DNA of 64,000 nt from Desulfoscipio sp. XC116 (GTDB lineage Bacteria; Bacillota; Desulfotomaculia; Desulfotomaculales; Desulfallaceae). The position numbers and the translations under genes are program-made. The notes below the pieces were generated by a model that worked only from the letters and a program-made list of their open reading frames with translations, made no database searches and had not been told where the DNA came from. Location: positions 2,857,035-2,921,034 of the forward strand of contig NZ_CP156660.1 of the NCBI RefSeq assembly GCF_039851975.1, written 5' to 3'. Of the stretch, positions 56,872-60,252 are shown piece after piece; position 1 is the first letter of the stretch; the number at the start of each line of letters is the position of its first letter.

Positions 56872-57198
56872 ATCAACTCACCGCCCATGCTTTAAATTAG
56901 AACAAAACAATACATATAGTATTTCTTGACACTTAATTATACTAAACTTTGTTGTTAAAGCCAAAAAGGGAAACTGCCGTCAAAAACTATATTTTAATCA
57001 TTTTGCTATACCTTGCTAAAAGAGAAACTTAAAAACACAAGAATACATAGTTTTTGATTAAGGTAAAAACAGGACTCCCACTTATAGAAAGCGGGAGTCC
57101 TGGAATTTGATTAAAAACCCCGGTAACGCCGTACGCGCCGGGGATTGGTGAGGAAAACACAAATACCGGACAAATGCCTTTACCGGTTGATATAATTA
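56872..57198. other. Gap upstream of nrdR with putative NrdR box and promoter
   Basis: 327 bp. On the minus strand TTGGCT, 17 bp, TATAAT (near 56945) is a candidate promoter, and ACAATACATATAGTATT (56907-56923) is an NrdR-box-like site just downstream, suggesting autoregulation. Further upstream is the ylmC terminator hairpin (57071-57101). No ORF is seen. Confidence 0.5.
57071..57101 (-). terminator. Terminator hairpin downstream of ylmC
   Basis: AGGACTCCCA/GCGGGAGTCCT stem; on the minus strand it is followed by GTTTTTACC. It shares CTCCCACTT...GGGAGT with the hairpin at 41201-41222. Confidence 0.65.
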
Positions 57199-57495
57199 TT
57201 ACCATTTTTCTTTAATACCGCCGTGCAGTTCAGCACCCGACAGATTAAAAGACAGATCCACCAAAATAACATCGACGCCAATTTTTTTGATCTTTTGCCA
57301 GGGCACTACCAGTTCTTCTTCACGCCCGATAAAACTCATAAGCTTTCCACCGCCGCCCCCGCCGTGTCCGGGCAATATAATAGCGTTGATGCGCCCCTCA
57401 TCCAAATTGATATCTATATCCTTTATGGGACCGAGACGGCGCCCGTCCGCCACATTAACAACTTCCCGCATACGCAAATCGGAGATTTTAACCAT
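57199..57495 (-). CDS. YlmC/YmxH family PRC-barrel sporulation protein
   Basis: 98 residues: VKISDLRMREVVNVADGRRLGPIKDIDINLDEGRINAIILP is typical of the PRC-barrel YlmC/YmxH family (only part quoted per segment: KISDLRMREVVNVADG, RINAIILPG). A Gly-rich loop (HGGGGGGKL) and the conserved IKKIGVDVILVDL follow. It lies after sigG, as in many spore formers; the function is unassigned. The start is at 57495 behind GGGGGTG. Confidence 0.9.
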   Translation of the reverse strand: MVKISDLRMREVVNVADGRRLGPIKDIDINLDEGRINAIILPGHGGGGGGKLMSFIGREEELVVPWQKIKKIGVDVILVDLSFNLSGAELHGGIKEKW

Positions 57496-57534
57496 CTAAA
57501 ACACCCCCATACATATGTATATGAGGGTATCAGT

Positions 57535-57684
57535 TTAATCTGAACGAAAAAAGTCCTCTTCATAAAATAAATTGTTTTGGTTATAAGCATATACCGCATC
57601 ATCGTCCGGCGGCGCGGCCCCGTGCACCGGCACCGCCAAAAGGACTGATAAGGCAATCGCTAACCAGACCGGTTTTTTAAGCAA
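57535..57684 (-). CDS. Small secreted peptide between sigG and ylmC
   Basis: I translate a 49-residue frame from the TTG at 57684 behind GGGAGGTG (7 nt spacing). The N-terminal signal peptide is LKKPVWLAIALSVLLAVPVH, with likely cleavage near HGA-AP. The mature part is acidic and aromatic (PPDDDAVYAY, NLFYEEDFF). I do not recognise it. It sits 42 bp after the sigG stop and 39 bp before ylmC on the same strand, so it may be expressed with sigG in the forespore. The strong ribosome site, signal peptide and tight spacing make it a credible gene. Confidence 0.65.
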   Translation of the reverse strand: MLKKPVWLAIALSVLLAVPVHGAAPPDDDAVYAYNQNNLFYEEDFFRSD

Positions 57685-57725
57685 GCACAGCACCTCCCGG
57701 AAGGTTTAACCGCCTGCCTGTATAA

Positions 57726-58499
57726 TCACACATGTTTACGCATATGGTGCAGAGCCGCTTTTTCCAATCGGGAAACCTGAGCCTGGGAGATGCCAATTTC
57801 CTCGGCCACCTCCATTTGCGTTTTACCTTCATAAAACCGCAAAGTAAGGATTAATTTTTCGCGATCGCTGAGCTTGCGCAGAGCGTCCCGAATGGCGATA
57901 CCCTCCAGCCAGGTTAAATCCAAATGTTTTTCATCGCTGATCTGATCCATAACAAAGATGGGGTCACCGCCGTCATGAAAGATAGGCTCAAATAGAGAAA
58001 TGGGTTCTTGAATAGCGTCCAGAGCAAAAACAATTTCCTCCCGGGGCATTTTTAGCTCACTGGCAATTTCATTAATGGATGGCTCCCGGGAGTGTTTGTT
58101 AACCAGTGAATCGCGTACCTGCAAAGCTTTATAAGCTACATCACGCAATGAGCGGCTCACCCGTATGGGATTGTTATCCCTTAAATAACGCCTGATTTCG
58201 CCGATTATCATAGGCACCGCATAGGTGGAGAACTTTACGTTCTGAGATAGGTCGAAATTATCAATAGCCTTCATCAGACCGATACAACCCACCTGAAATA
58301 AATCATCCACATATTCACCCCGGTTGGTGAATCGCTGAATAACACTGAGCACCAGCCGCAGGTTGCCGTTGATCAGCCGGTCGCGGGCTGGGTAATCACC
58401 GTTTTGCAGTGCAATAAAAAGTTCTTTCATCTTAACACTGGATAGAACCGGGAGTTTGGATGTGTTTACGCCGCAAATCTCAACCTTGTTGACCAGCAT
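57726..58499 (-). CDS. sigG: Forespore sigma factor SigG
   Basis: 257 residues from the ATG at 58499, giving NKVEICGVNTSKLPVL, the conserved SigG N-terminus; GGAAAGGATGG is upstream. Region 2 has NLRLVLSVIQRFTNRGEYVD, LFQVGCIGLMKAIDNFDLS and FSTYAVPMIIGEIRRYLRD. Region 4 has REKLILTLRFYEGKTQMEVA and EIGISQAQVSRLEKAAL. It directs late forespore transcription. The frame extends 15 codons upstream without need. Confidence 0.96.
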   Translation of the reverse strand: MLVNKVEICGVNTSKLPVLSSVKMKELFIALQNGDYPARDRLINGNLRLVLSVIQRFTNRGEYVDDLFQVGCIGLMKAIDNFDLSQNVKFSTYAVPMIIGEIRRYLRDNNPIRVSRSLRDVAYKALQVRDSLVNKHSREPSINEIASELKMPREEIVFALDAIQEPISLFEPIFHDGGDPIFVMDQISDEKHLDLTWLEGIAIRDALRKLSDREKLILTLRFYEGKTQMEVAEEIGISQAQVSRLEKAALHHMRKHV

Positions 58500-58587
58500 G
58501 GACAGACCATCCTTTCCCATGACATATGCTGAGCTCAATTTCATTATTACCTCGGGATTGGTGATTTATACATGCCGCCGGACCGGC

Positions 58588-59310
58588 TTACTCCATGCGA
58601 TTGATTTCCTTCTTCAAACGTTTAATGATTCTCTTTTCCAGTCTGGAAATATAAGATTGGGATATACCCATCATGTCCGCCACTTCTTTTTGGGTTTTTT
58701 CTTTGCCGCTTTTAAGACCGAACCGCAATTCCATTATCCCTCGCTCCCGGCCGTTTAATTTCTGTAAAGCCAGGTGGAGCAACTTGCGATCAACCTCTTC
58801 TTCTATATACTTATGGATAATATCATTTTCCGTACCCAATACATCCGAAAGCAGCAGCTCATTGCCGTCCCAGTCGATGTTCAGCGGCTCGTCAAAAGAA
58901 ACCTCGGTCCTGGTTTTATTATTTCGCCGCAAGTACATCAATATTTCATTTTCAATACACCGGGAAGCGTAAGTGGCCAGTTTAATTTTCTTAGCGGGGT
59001 CAAATGTGTTTACGGCCTTTATTAATCCAATGGTACCGATAGAAACCAGGTCTTCGATACCAACCCCGGTATTTTCAAATTTACGGGCTATATATACCAC
59101 CAAGCGCAGGTTTCTTTCAATCAGTACGCTGCGCACAGCACCGTCCCCCGACTCCAGCTTATTAATCAAGTAAGATTCCTCATCTGTGGTTAGCGGAGGC
59201 GGCAGAGCTTCGCTGCTGCCCACATAGTAAACATCCGATTTCAACCCCAGCCGCAGCAGTATCTTTAACGCTGTAATACGCAGGAATAATCTCATTCTCC
59301 CAAGCAGCAT
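58588..59310 (-). CDS. sigE: Mother-cell sigma factor pro-SigE
   Basis: 240 residues. The first ~27 ([20 protein letters not shown]) are the amphipathic pro-sequence removed by SpoIIGA, whose gene lies 33 bp upstream. Regions 2 and 4 are clear: [60 protein letters not shown] and [18 protein letters not shown]. It controls early mother-cell genes after asymmetric division. Confidence 0.97.
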
Positions 59311-59343: not shown

Positions 59344-60252
59344 TTACAATAAACCGGCGGGCAGCAAAGCCCGGCATGAAGTGTCACCCTGCAGGCAGTC
59401 CCGGTAAAGGGCGACCACTACATTGCCAACTTTAATATGGTTACTTCCGCGCTTAAGCTCCACCTCATCAGGGCGAAAACCAAGCAGCCAACCGTTTTCC
59501 CGCCCTACCGACCGATAGGGTATAATACGAAAGTTACCCGCCCGAATGTTTTCACCCAGCGCAACAAGCACGGACGCACCATCGTCTCGCCCGTGAGACT
59601 CTACCGCGGCACACACTTGATCGGGCAATATTTCCTTTATCGCTGCATACTCGGCAATAATCACCGGGTGACCGGTGAGTGGATCGCTGAGGCTGTTACC
59701 TGTATCAAGCAGCGCTTGCAGGCAAACTTTCCGTTCGCCCAGGCGTATTGTTAGATCAGCTCTGAGCAAAGGCAGCATTAGACGCTTACGCAACACCGCG
59801 GGAACTACCCGGCCCAAAAACCAATACATTAACAAAGCCAGCAATATGCCATACCACAAAAAAGCATCCACCGCCTGCATAACACCGACGAGCCGAACGT
59901 CAAAGGCGGTTTTTTGCAGGAAGCTGATAATCCCCAGCACGGTGCCGCCCAACGCAAAGGTACTGATATAAAAGTAAGCCAACAGCACCAGTACCTTTTT
60001 AGGCGGCCCGGGCACAAAGACCACCGCCACCATTAAAAAGGATACCAACAGCTTATAACCGGGTCCCAAATACCCTTCCATAGCCGGGATAAACAAGAAT
60101 AGCGAGTACAGGGCGCCCACCGCGGCCCCGGCCAGCAGCCGCCACCGGCTGTAAGCGGTATTTCCCAGTCTGGCCGTGACCCATAGAATCATCATATTCA
60201 TTACCAGACTGCCAATAAAAACCTGGTCTATATATACTACATAAGATGGCAT
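59344..60252 (-). CDS. spoIIGA: Sporulation sigma-E processing peptidase SpoIIGA
   Basis: 302 residues: five membrane helices in the first ~150 residues (starting VFIGSLVMNMMILWVTARLG), then an aspartic-protease-like domain with the catalytic LLDTGNSLSDPLTG (Asp183), and LLGFRPDEVEL near the end. It cleaves the SigE pro-sequence at the septum in response to the SpoIIR signal. The ATG follows GGGGGAAACCA. It is cotranscribed with sigE. Confidence 0.95.
   Translation of the reverse strand: MPSYVVYIDQVFIGSLVMNMMILWVTARLGNTAYSRWRLLAGAAVGALYSLFLFIPAMEGYLGPGYKLLVSFLMVAVVFVPGPPKKVLVLLAYFYISTFALGGTVLGIISFLQKTAFDVRLVGVMQAVDAFLWYGILLALLMYWFLGRVVPAVLRKRLMLPLLRADLTIRLGERKVCLQALLDTGNSLSDPLTGHPVIIAEYAAIKEILPDQVCAAVESHGRDDGASVLVALGENIRAGNFRIIPYRSVGRENGWLLGFRPDEVELKRGSNHIKVGNVVVALYRDCLQGDTSCRALLPAGLL

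Follow-up and report, generated by a model that had tools for sequence, protein, structure and literature searches.

A small protein gene between sigG and ylmC in Desulfotomaculales, probably derived from the N-terminal end of SpoIIR

SpoIIR (model TIGR02837), a protein made in the forespore as a signal to the mother cell, switches on the protease SpoIIGA in the activation of sigma-E. A 2026 study argues that the intermembrane space may not be where SpoIIR itself acts, and reports that other membrane segments can replace the N-terminal domain of the Bacillus subtilis protein and that its cleavage was not seen (PMC13174948). The N-terminal swaps argue against an essential receptor-binding role of that end in B. 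subtilis and leave the compartment open. SpoIIT (YwmB), described in PMC4703394, is a second helper of SpoIIGA in sigma-E activation in B. subtilis, forespore-made and predicted to be secreted, which resembles what is proposed here, but it is a larger protein encoded by another gene at another locus (ywzB-spoIIT-murAA). microProteins are also similar, being short single-module relatives of larger proteins that are encoded separately and regulate the full-length form, although the term is used mainly for plants (PMC7534434), and a regulatory role in the present case is hypothetical. The sigG promoter of B. subtilis, PsigG, is transcribed by sigma-F and sigma-G, as stated in PMC5942855.

The DNA analysed here (the window) is a stretch of 64,000 nucleotides from Desulfoscipio sp. 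XC116, and its relevant features are listed in Table 1. A preliminary description, which gave no strand, had placed a 49-residue ORF with a TTG start and a strong ribosome-binding site between sigG and ylmC. This ORF is present on the minus strand behind a GGGAGG sequence, its neighbours are SigG and YlmC/YmxH by NCBIfam models, and the plus-strand reading of the same positions is interrupted by stops. It starts 41 nt past the sigG stop, ends 39 nt ahead of ylmC and has DDDAVYAYNQNNLFYEEDFFRSD as its C-terminal end. An in-frame GTG at 57693 overlaps the Shine-Dalgarno sequence. By a loose pattern, a purine-rich stretch like a Shine-Dalgarno sequence precedes 19/19 starts of such short ORFs, that of genome G007 being poor. 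SpoIIGA and sigE share the cluster with sigG and the short ORF, and SpoIIGA scores 208.9 bits, about 0.6 bit below the TIGR02854 cut-off of 209.55.

The signal peptide that had been called clear stands as an N-terminal hydrophobic segment, while its cleavage site is placed by eye only: PVHG|A after the segment is a plausible site for signal peptidase I, and PV[HY]G or PAYG occurs at the corresponding point in 8/14 sequences from the family of the window's genome (f1). All 30 sequences examined have the hydrophobic segment (mean Kyte-Doolittle 1.83-3.14), with cleavage sites likewise judged by eye.

Table 1. Coordinates of the short ORF, its parts and its neighbourhood in the window
Feature	Position	Strand	Basis or remark
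spoIIGA (protease switched on by SpoIIR)	59344..60252	minus	TIGR02854 E 1e-61
sigE	58588..59310	minus	NCBIfam; upstream of sigG
Putative sigma-F/G-type promoter GTATA-N15-GGTAATAAT, between sigE and sigG	58543..58571	minus	pattern match
sigG	57726..58499	minus	start at residue 16 of a 272-aa ORF, where model NF006071 begins; TIGR02850 E 5e-150
Shine-Dalgarno GGGAGG	57693..57698	minus	8 nt upstream of TTG
49-aa ORF (short SpoIIR-like peptide)	57684-57535	minus	TTG start at 57684, TAA stop 57537-57535; slot conservation; codon selection
Hydrophobic export/anchor segment, residues 6-20	57625..57669	minus	best mean Kyte-Doolittle 2.57; helix 4-17 in low-confidence AF2 model
Inferred mature peptide, residues 23-49, after PVHG|A	57538..57618	minus	by eye
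Conserved V.AYN..NLF motif, residues 31-40	57565..57594	minus	numbering identical in the in-slot SpoIIR of G016
Conserved GTTCAG-N16-CATATACAT element ahead of ylmC	57515..57545	minus	by eye; overlaps last codons of the ORF
ylmC/ymxH (PRC-barrel sporulation protein)	57199..57495	minus	TIGR02888 E 2e-26

Codon comparisons give good support for the ORF as a real small protein gene under protein-level selection. Nine independent pairs from five families have pS 0.516 and pN 0.222 (combined p 1.3e-21), and eight of them are individually at p<0.01, the exception being G017-G059 with p 0.055; the +1 and +2 frames of the same nine pairs give no purifying selection (p 0.66 and 1.0). Within the genus, the pooled values are pS 0.51 and pN 0.25. 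Constraint is strongest in the motif region (pN 0.078 vs pS 0.592) and weaker in the tail (pN 0.242 vs pS 0.654). In the genus, the conserved element before ylmC extends over the final codons, so selection on the RSD/CSD end may be at the DNA level. A chance ORF is rejected by codon selection together with slot conservation. The 49-aa ORF has no match in Pfam or NCBIfam at E<=1, and membership of a known small-protein family was discarded, as these collections matched no more than single members, and by chance (best E 0.029). A structured RNA was rejected after an Rfam search of 56900-58700 gave no match at E<=1.

A putative promoter of the sigma-F/G type lies ahead of sigG, and transcription from it would presumably reach the short ORF. 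The form GTATA-N15-GG[TC]AATAAT, whose letters we take to be the sigma-F/G consensus, or a close form of it, precedes sigG at 46/48 loci, where mononucleotide shuffles predict 2.7; G025 just fails the pattern and G040 yielded no region. Co-transcription with sigG is less clear in G007 and G010, since their ORFs start 377 and 141 nt after sigG, respectively. The element at 57515-57545 resembles a sporulation promoter for ylmC, and GTTCAG-N15..17-CATATACAT followed by a Shine-Dalgarno sequence ahead of ylmC is, by eye, conserved in f1 and partly in families f3, f12 and f18. CCCTCATA/TATGGGGG could pair across the ylmC Shine-Dalgarno sequence. A terminator-like stem with a T run is seen by eye directly ahead of ylmC in several f12 genomes (L074-L155 slots) and within the short-ORF end in G002 and G005. 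It is hardly credible that the ORF is a leader peptide or an untranslated regulatory stretch for ylmC: it does precede ylmC, and its 3' end overlaps the promoter-like element conserved in the genus, but the spacing between ORF and ylmC ranges from 39 to 327 nt, ylmC seems to have its own upstream element, selection acts on codons and Rfam gives no match.

A search of 60 relatives with a check of synteny showed that the homologues occupy the same place between sigG and ylmC (the sigG-ylmC slot). In a census of the order, 113 genomes were searched, 102 have sigG and 100 slots were read, G019 and G062 being left out as their contigs end near sigG. A full-length SpoIIR is encoded on the sense strand in 46 slots, the short ORF in 19, neither in 35 and both in 0; ylmC follows on the stretch in 40 of the 46 SpoIIR slots and was not found on it in 6. 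Conservation in relatives, whose absence the preliminary description had named as grounds to give up the gene, is observed in 14/14 readable genomes of f1 and 5/5 of f3 (the f1 genomes G008 and G014 gave no sigG match and are not counted). The slots with neither belong to f8 (23), f12 (9), f18 (2) and f15 (1), and no motif occurs in the three sense frames of the 33 gaps among them that could be delimited. G009 (L174; L010) has ATA, preceded by a good Shine-Dalgarno sequence, at the position aligned with the start codon of the short ORF, and the sister genome G012 has ATG there.

Outside the order, 398 genomes of the phylum were searched, and three families have short ORFs, all inspected ones lying between sigG and ylmC. 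These are f39, with the ORF in 7/8 genomes of its order, f69, with 3/5 genomes (G167 weak, E 0.005), and f70, with G363 and G168. Further matches with short frames in the phylum include G142, G206 and G355. The tails vary between lineages and are conserved inside each, such as LEPKV in f39 and GHLRIF in f70. The peptide is dispensable over evolution, as it is absent from the sister families f18 and f12 and, in two groups outside the order, from 1/8 and 2/5 genomes, while G015 has a degenerate form.

The short ORF is homologous to the N-terminus of SpoIIR, with the export segment and V.AYN..NL kept and the domain gone, an origin that the preliminary description did not see and that profile and positional evidence support well. 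The slot of G016 encodes a SpoIIR, MKKRW...QQTVEAYNPNNLIRLHVVANSDS... (TIGR02837 E 3e-56), and V31, A33, Y34, N35, N38 and L39 have identical residue numbers in this protein and in the window ORF. Short ORF and SpoIIR share the slot beside sigG, the hydrophobic N-terminus and the numbering of V.AYN..NL from V31 to L39, and the short ORFs of f39 and f3 keep gradual remnants of the next strand; the f39 tail NLLRFEAVAS is still like NLIRFHVIAS of SpoIIR, as expected for a truncated SpoIIR. They differ in that the short ORF is without the conserved domain (from the strand at residue 40 to the WWC region) and that its genomes carry a separate full-length SpoIIR elsewhere.

A profile from 18 short ORFs alone, searched in the 113 whole genomes at E<=0.1, matched 49 genomes, of which 19 gave short ORFs, 20 had a SpoIIR N-terminus as best match (E 5e-7 to 0.055; one of them is the relocated SpoIIR of G042) and 10 gave weak unrelated matches (E 0.006 to 0.1); all matches below 0.005 are short ORFs or SpoIIR. 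A 14-residue profile of the motif without the hydrophobic part was made to exclude an effect of hydrophobicity, and in 20,558 ORFs from loci enriched for this slot it found only short ORFs and SpoIIR up to E 2.4, the first unrelated match being at 2.6. The TIGR02837 model itself matched neither the 49-aa ORF in NCBIfam at E<=1 nor 22 members at E<=10. A profile of the SpoIIR core domain found nothing below E 2.3 in the three sense frames of 19 gaps, while 4/4 control slots were detected at 1e-64 or better. A frameshifted full SpoIIR is ruled out by the absence of the domain from these frames. Among in-slot SpoIIR proteins, 15/45 have the strict motif and 19/45 the relaxed one, and 26/45 fail even the relaxed form. 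The in-slot SpoIIR of G224 (L253) is readable only across two overlapping frames, from a sequencing error or a broken gene.

In the AF2 model of the in-slot SpoIIR of G016 (mean pLDDT 83.4), residues 2-33 form a helix, the motif at 31-39 is a link and the first strand is at 40-45, so the short ORF is predicted to end just where the SpoIIR domain would begin. The model of the 49-aa protein itself has low confidence (pLDDT 60.5), its helix alone being modelled at fair confidence. A fold search with the SpoIIR model against the PDB gave no match at E<=0.001 and the best PDB sequence match has E 0.26, and SpoIIR is thus without a usable solved relative.

The short ORF is known from 31 genomes, of which 28 were searched for SpoIIR (G176, G276 and G348 were left out). 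A full-length SpoIIR is found in 27/28, always outside the slot, and the exception, G300, is an incomplete assembly. In the window's genome it lies at G000:C1:146372-146830 (L156, L212) between YabQ-like and DivIC/FtsB-like genes, named by eye, and scores 145.8 bits, below the SpoIIR cut-off of 151.9. The motif is present in 0/27 N-termini of these relocated proteins (18 by pattern, 9 by eye), with partial likeness in G167 (GYNIKN, GYNIKNDEVIRLH) and G010 (NYQKDNLIR). Where the motif occurs, either SpoIIR or the short ORF carries it, never both, an exclusivity that represents about five lineages and not 27 independent cases. In f18, the sister of f1, the relocated SpoIIR has AYNKDNLIR or SYDKNDLIR, with nothing in the slot. 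The SpoIIR proteins of f12 and f8 examined are without the motif and their slots without the short ORF; SpoIIR in general thus does not depend on the module. A tentative explanation is that the motif module helps the relocated, motif-less SpoIIR in trans, as a co-activator or membrane guide; it agrees with the exclusivity and with the retention of the motif in cis in f18, but f12 and f8, which have the motif in neither place, and the small number of lineages weaken it.

The species tree, built from FtsZ, SpoIIGA, SigE, SigG and YlmC of 40 genomes (33, 39, 40, 40 and 38 sequences), pairs f1 with f18 (100) and f3 with f12 (96), with weak backbone nodes (33-89) and a suspiciously long branch for G040. 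By this pairing f1 and f3 are not sisters, and each has a sister family without the short ORF. A tree of 77 SpoIIR sequences puts the f1 copies in one group (87) and those of f3 and f12 in another (100), and the neighbourhoods of relocated spoIIR differ between these groups by eye. One relocation shared by f1 and f18 is unsupported, since f18 does not join f1 in this tree. Most simply, spoIIR would have moved out of the slot on several occasions, with its front end kept at least two times in the order and again outside; one ancient short gene, lost many times, is also possible. G252 (L259, L274, L276) and G218 (L260, L275) have two or three full-length SpoIIR over the family cut-off, one with an AYN motif beside sigG and others elsewhere, and may be relocation intermediates.

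That the ORF is a non-functional remnant of the moved spoIIR is very improbable. Its absence or decay in G015, f12 and f18 would suit a remnant, but purifying selection acts in the nine pairs (8/9 at p<0.01, combined 1e-21) with the other frames null, and the same form is retained in two families of the order not placed as sisters. The chance ORF, relic and leader readings are, in sum, contradicted or weak.

The reading that we favour, at roughly even chances, is that the ORF is the front end of SpoIIR kept in the slot and encodes a forespore-made, exported or anchored peptide that tunes SpoIIR-SpoIIGA signalling. The full-length spoIIR would have moved elsewhere and lost the V.AYN..NL linker, and the N-terminal piece would have stayed in the ancestral sigG-ylmC slot. 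The short ORF would be co-transcribed with sigG from the sigma-F/sigma-G promoter and made in the forespore, and the peptide would enter or cross the forespore membrane, so that its AYN..NL tail may there contact the machinery of SpoIIR (SpoIIGA or a partner) and tune sigma-E activation. We infer all of co-transcription, forespore expression, export, contact with SpoIIR-SpoIIGA and direction of the effect. The forespore export proposed in the preliminary description fits these findings, and the intermembrane location appears less certain than was assumed there because PMC13174948 questions it for SpoIIR.

The peptide could instead be a microprotein-type antagonist or timer, holding back or restricting sigma-E activation by competition with full-length SpoIIR for SpoIIGA or for the membrane. 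An anchor and linker kept with the domain lost is the usual make-up of a dominant-negative fragment, and transcription with sigG would put the peptide in the same cell, but the swappable N-terminal domain of B. subtilis SpoIIR (PMC13174948) speaks against receptor binding by this end there, and we regard an antagonist as unlikely. Co-option for another forespore-membrane job, unrelated to SpoIIGA, is rather doubtful: tails that differ across lineages yet are conserved within them (LEPKV, GHLRIF) would agree with it, but the part common to all lineages is the SpoIIR-derived motif, the most constrained region.

The new elements here are the SpoIIR origin, the retention of the front end only and the distribution of the motif between the two proteins; none of the open-access papers that the search listed describes a short gene of SpoIIR type next to sigG, subscription papers being outside its scope. 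The gene is of a kind that model-based annotation would miss, and it shows clearly how a signal protein of bacterial development can be cut down to a small protein with a gene of its own. The 2026 study reopens even the compartment in which SpoIIR acts on SpoIIGA (PMC13174948). An anchor and linker selected without the domain indicate that this end of SpoIIR has its own job, which is assayable alone. We propose, with considerable reserve, that SpoIIR has been split repeatedly, the domain moving to a new locus with a new anchor and the linker staying beside sigG as an independent forespore peptide that delivers a distinct half of the signal. If this were true, sigma-E activation in these bacteria would use a peptide module that can stand apart and that in other bacteria lies concealed within SpoIIR.
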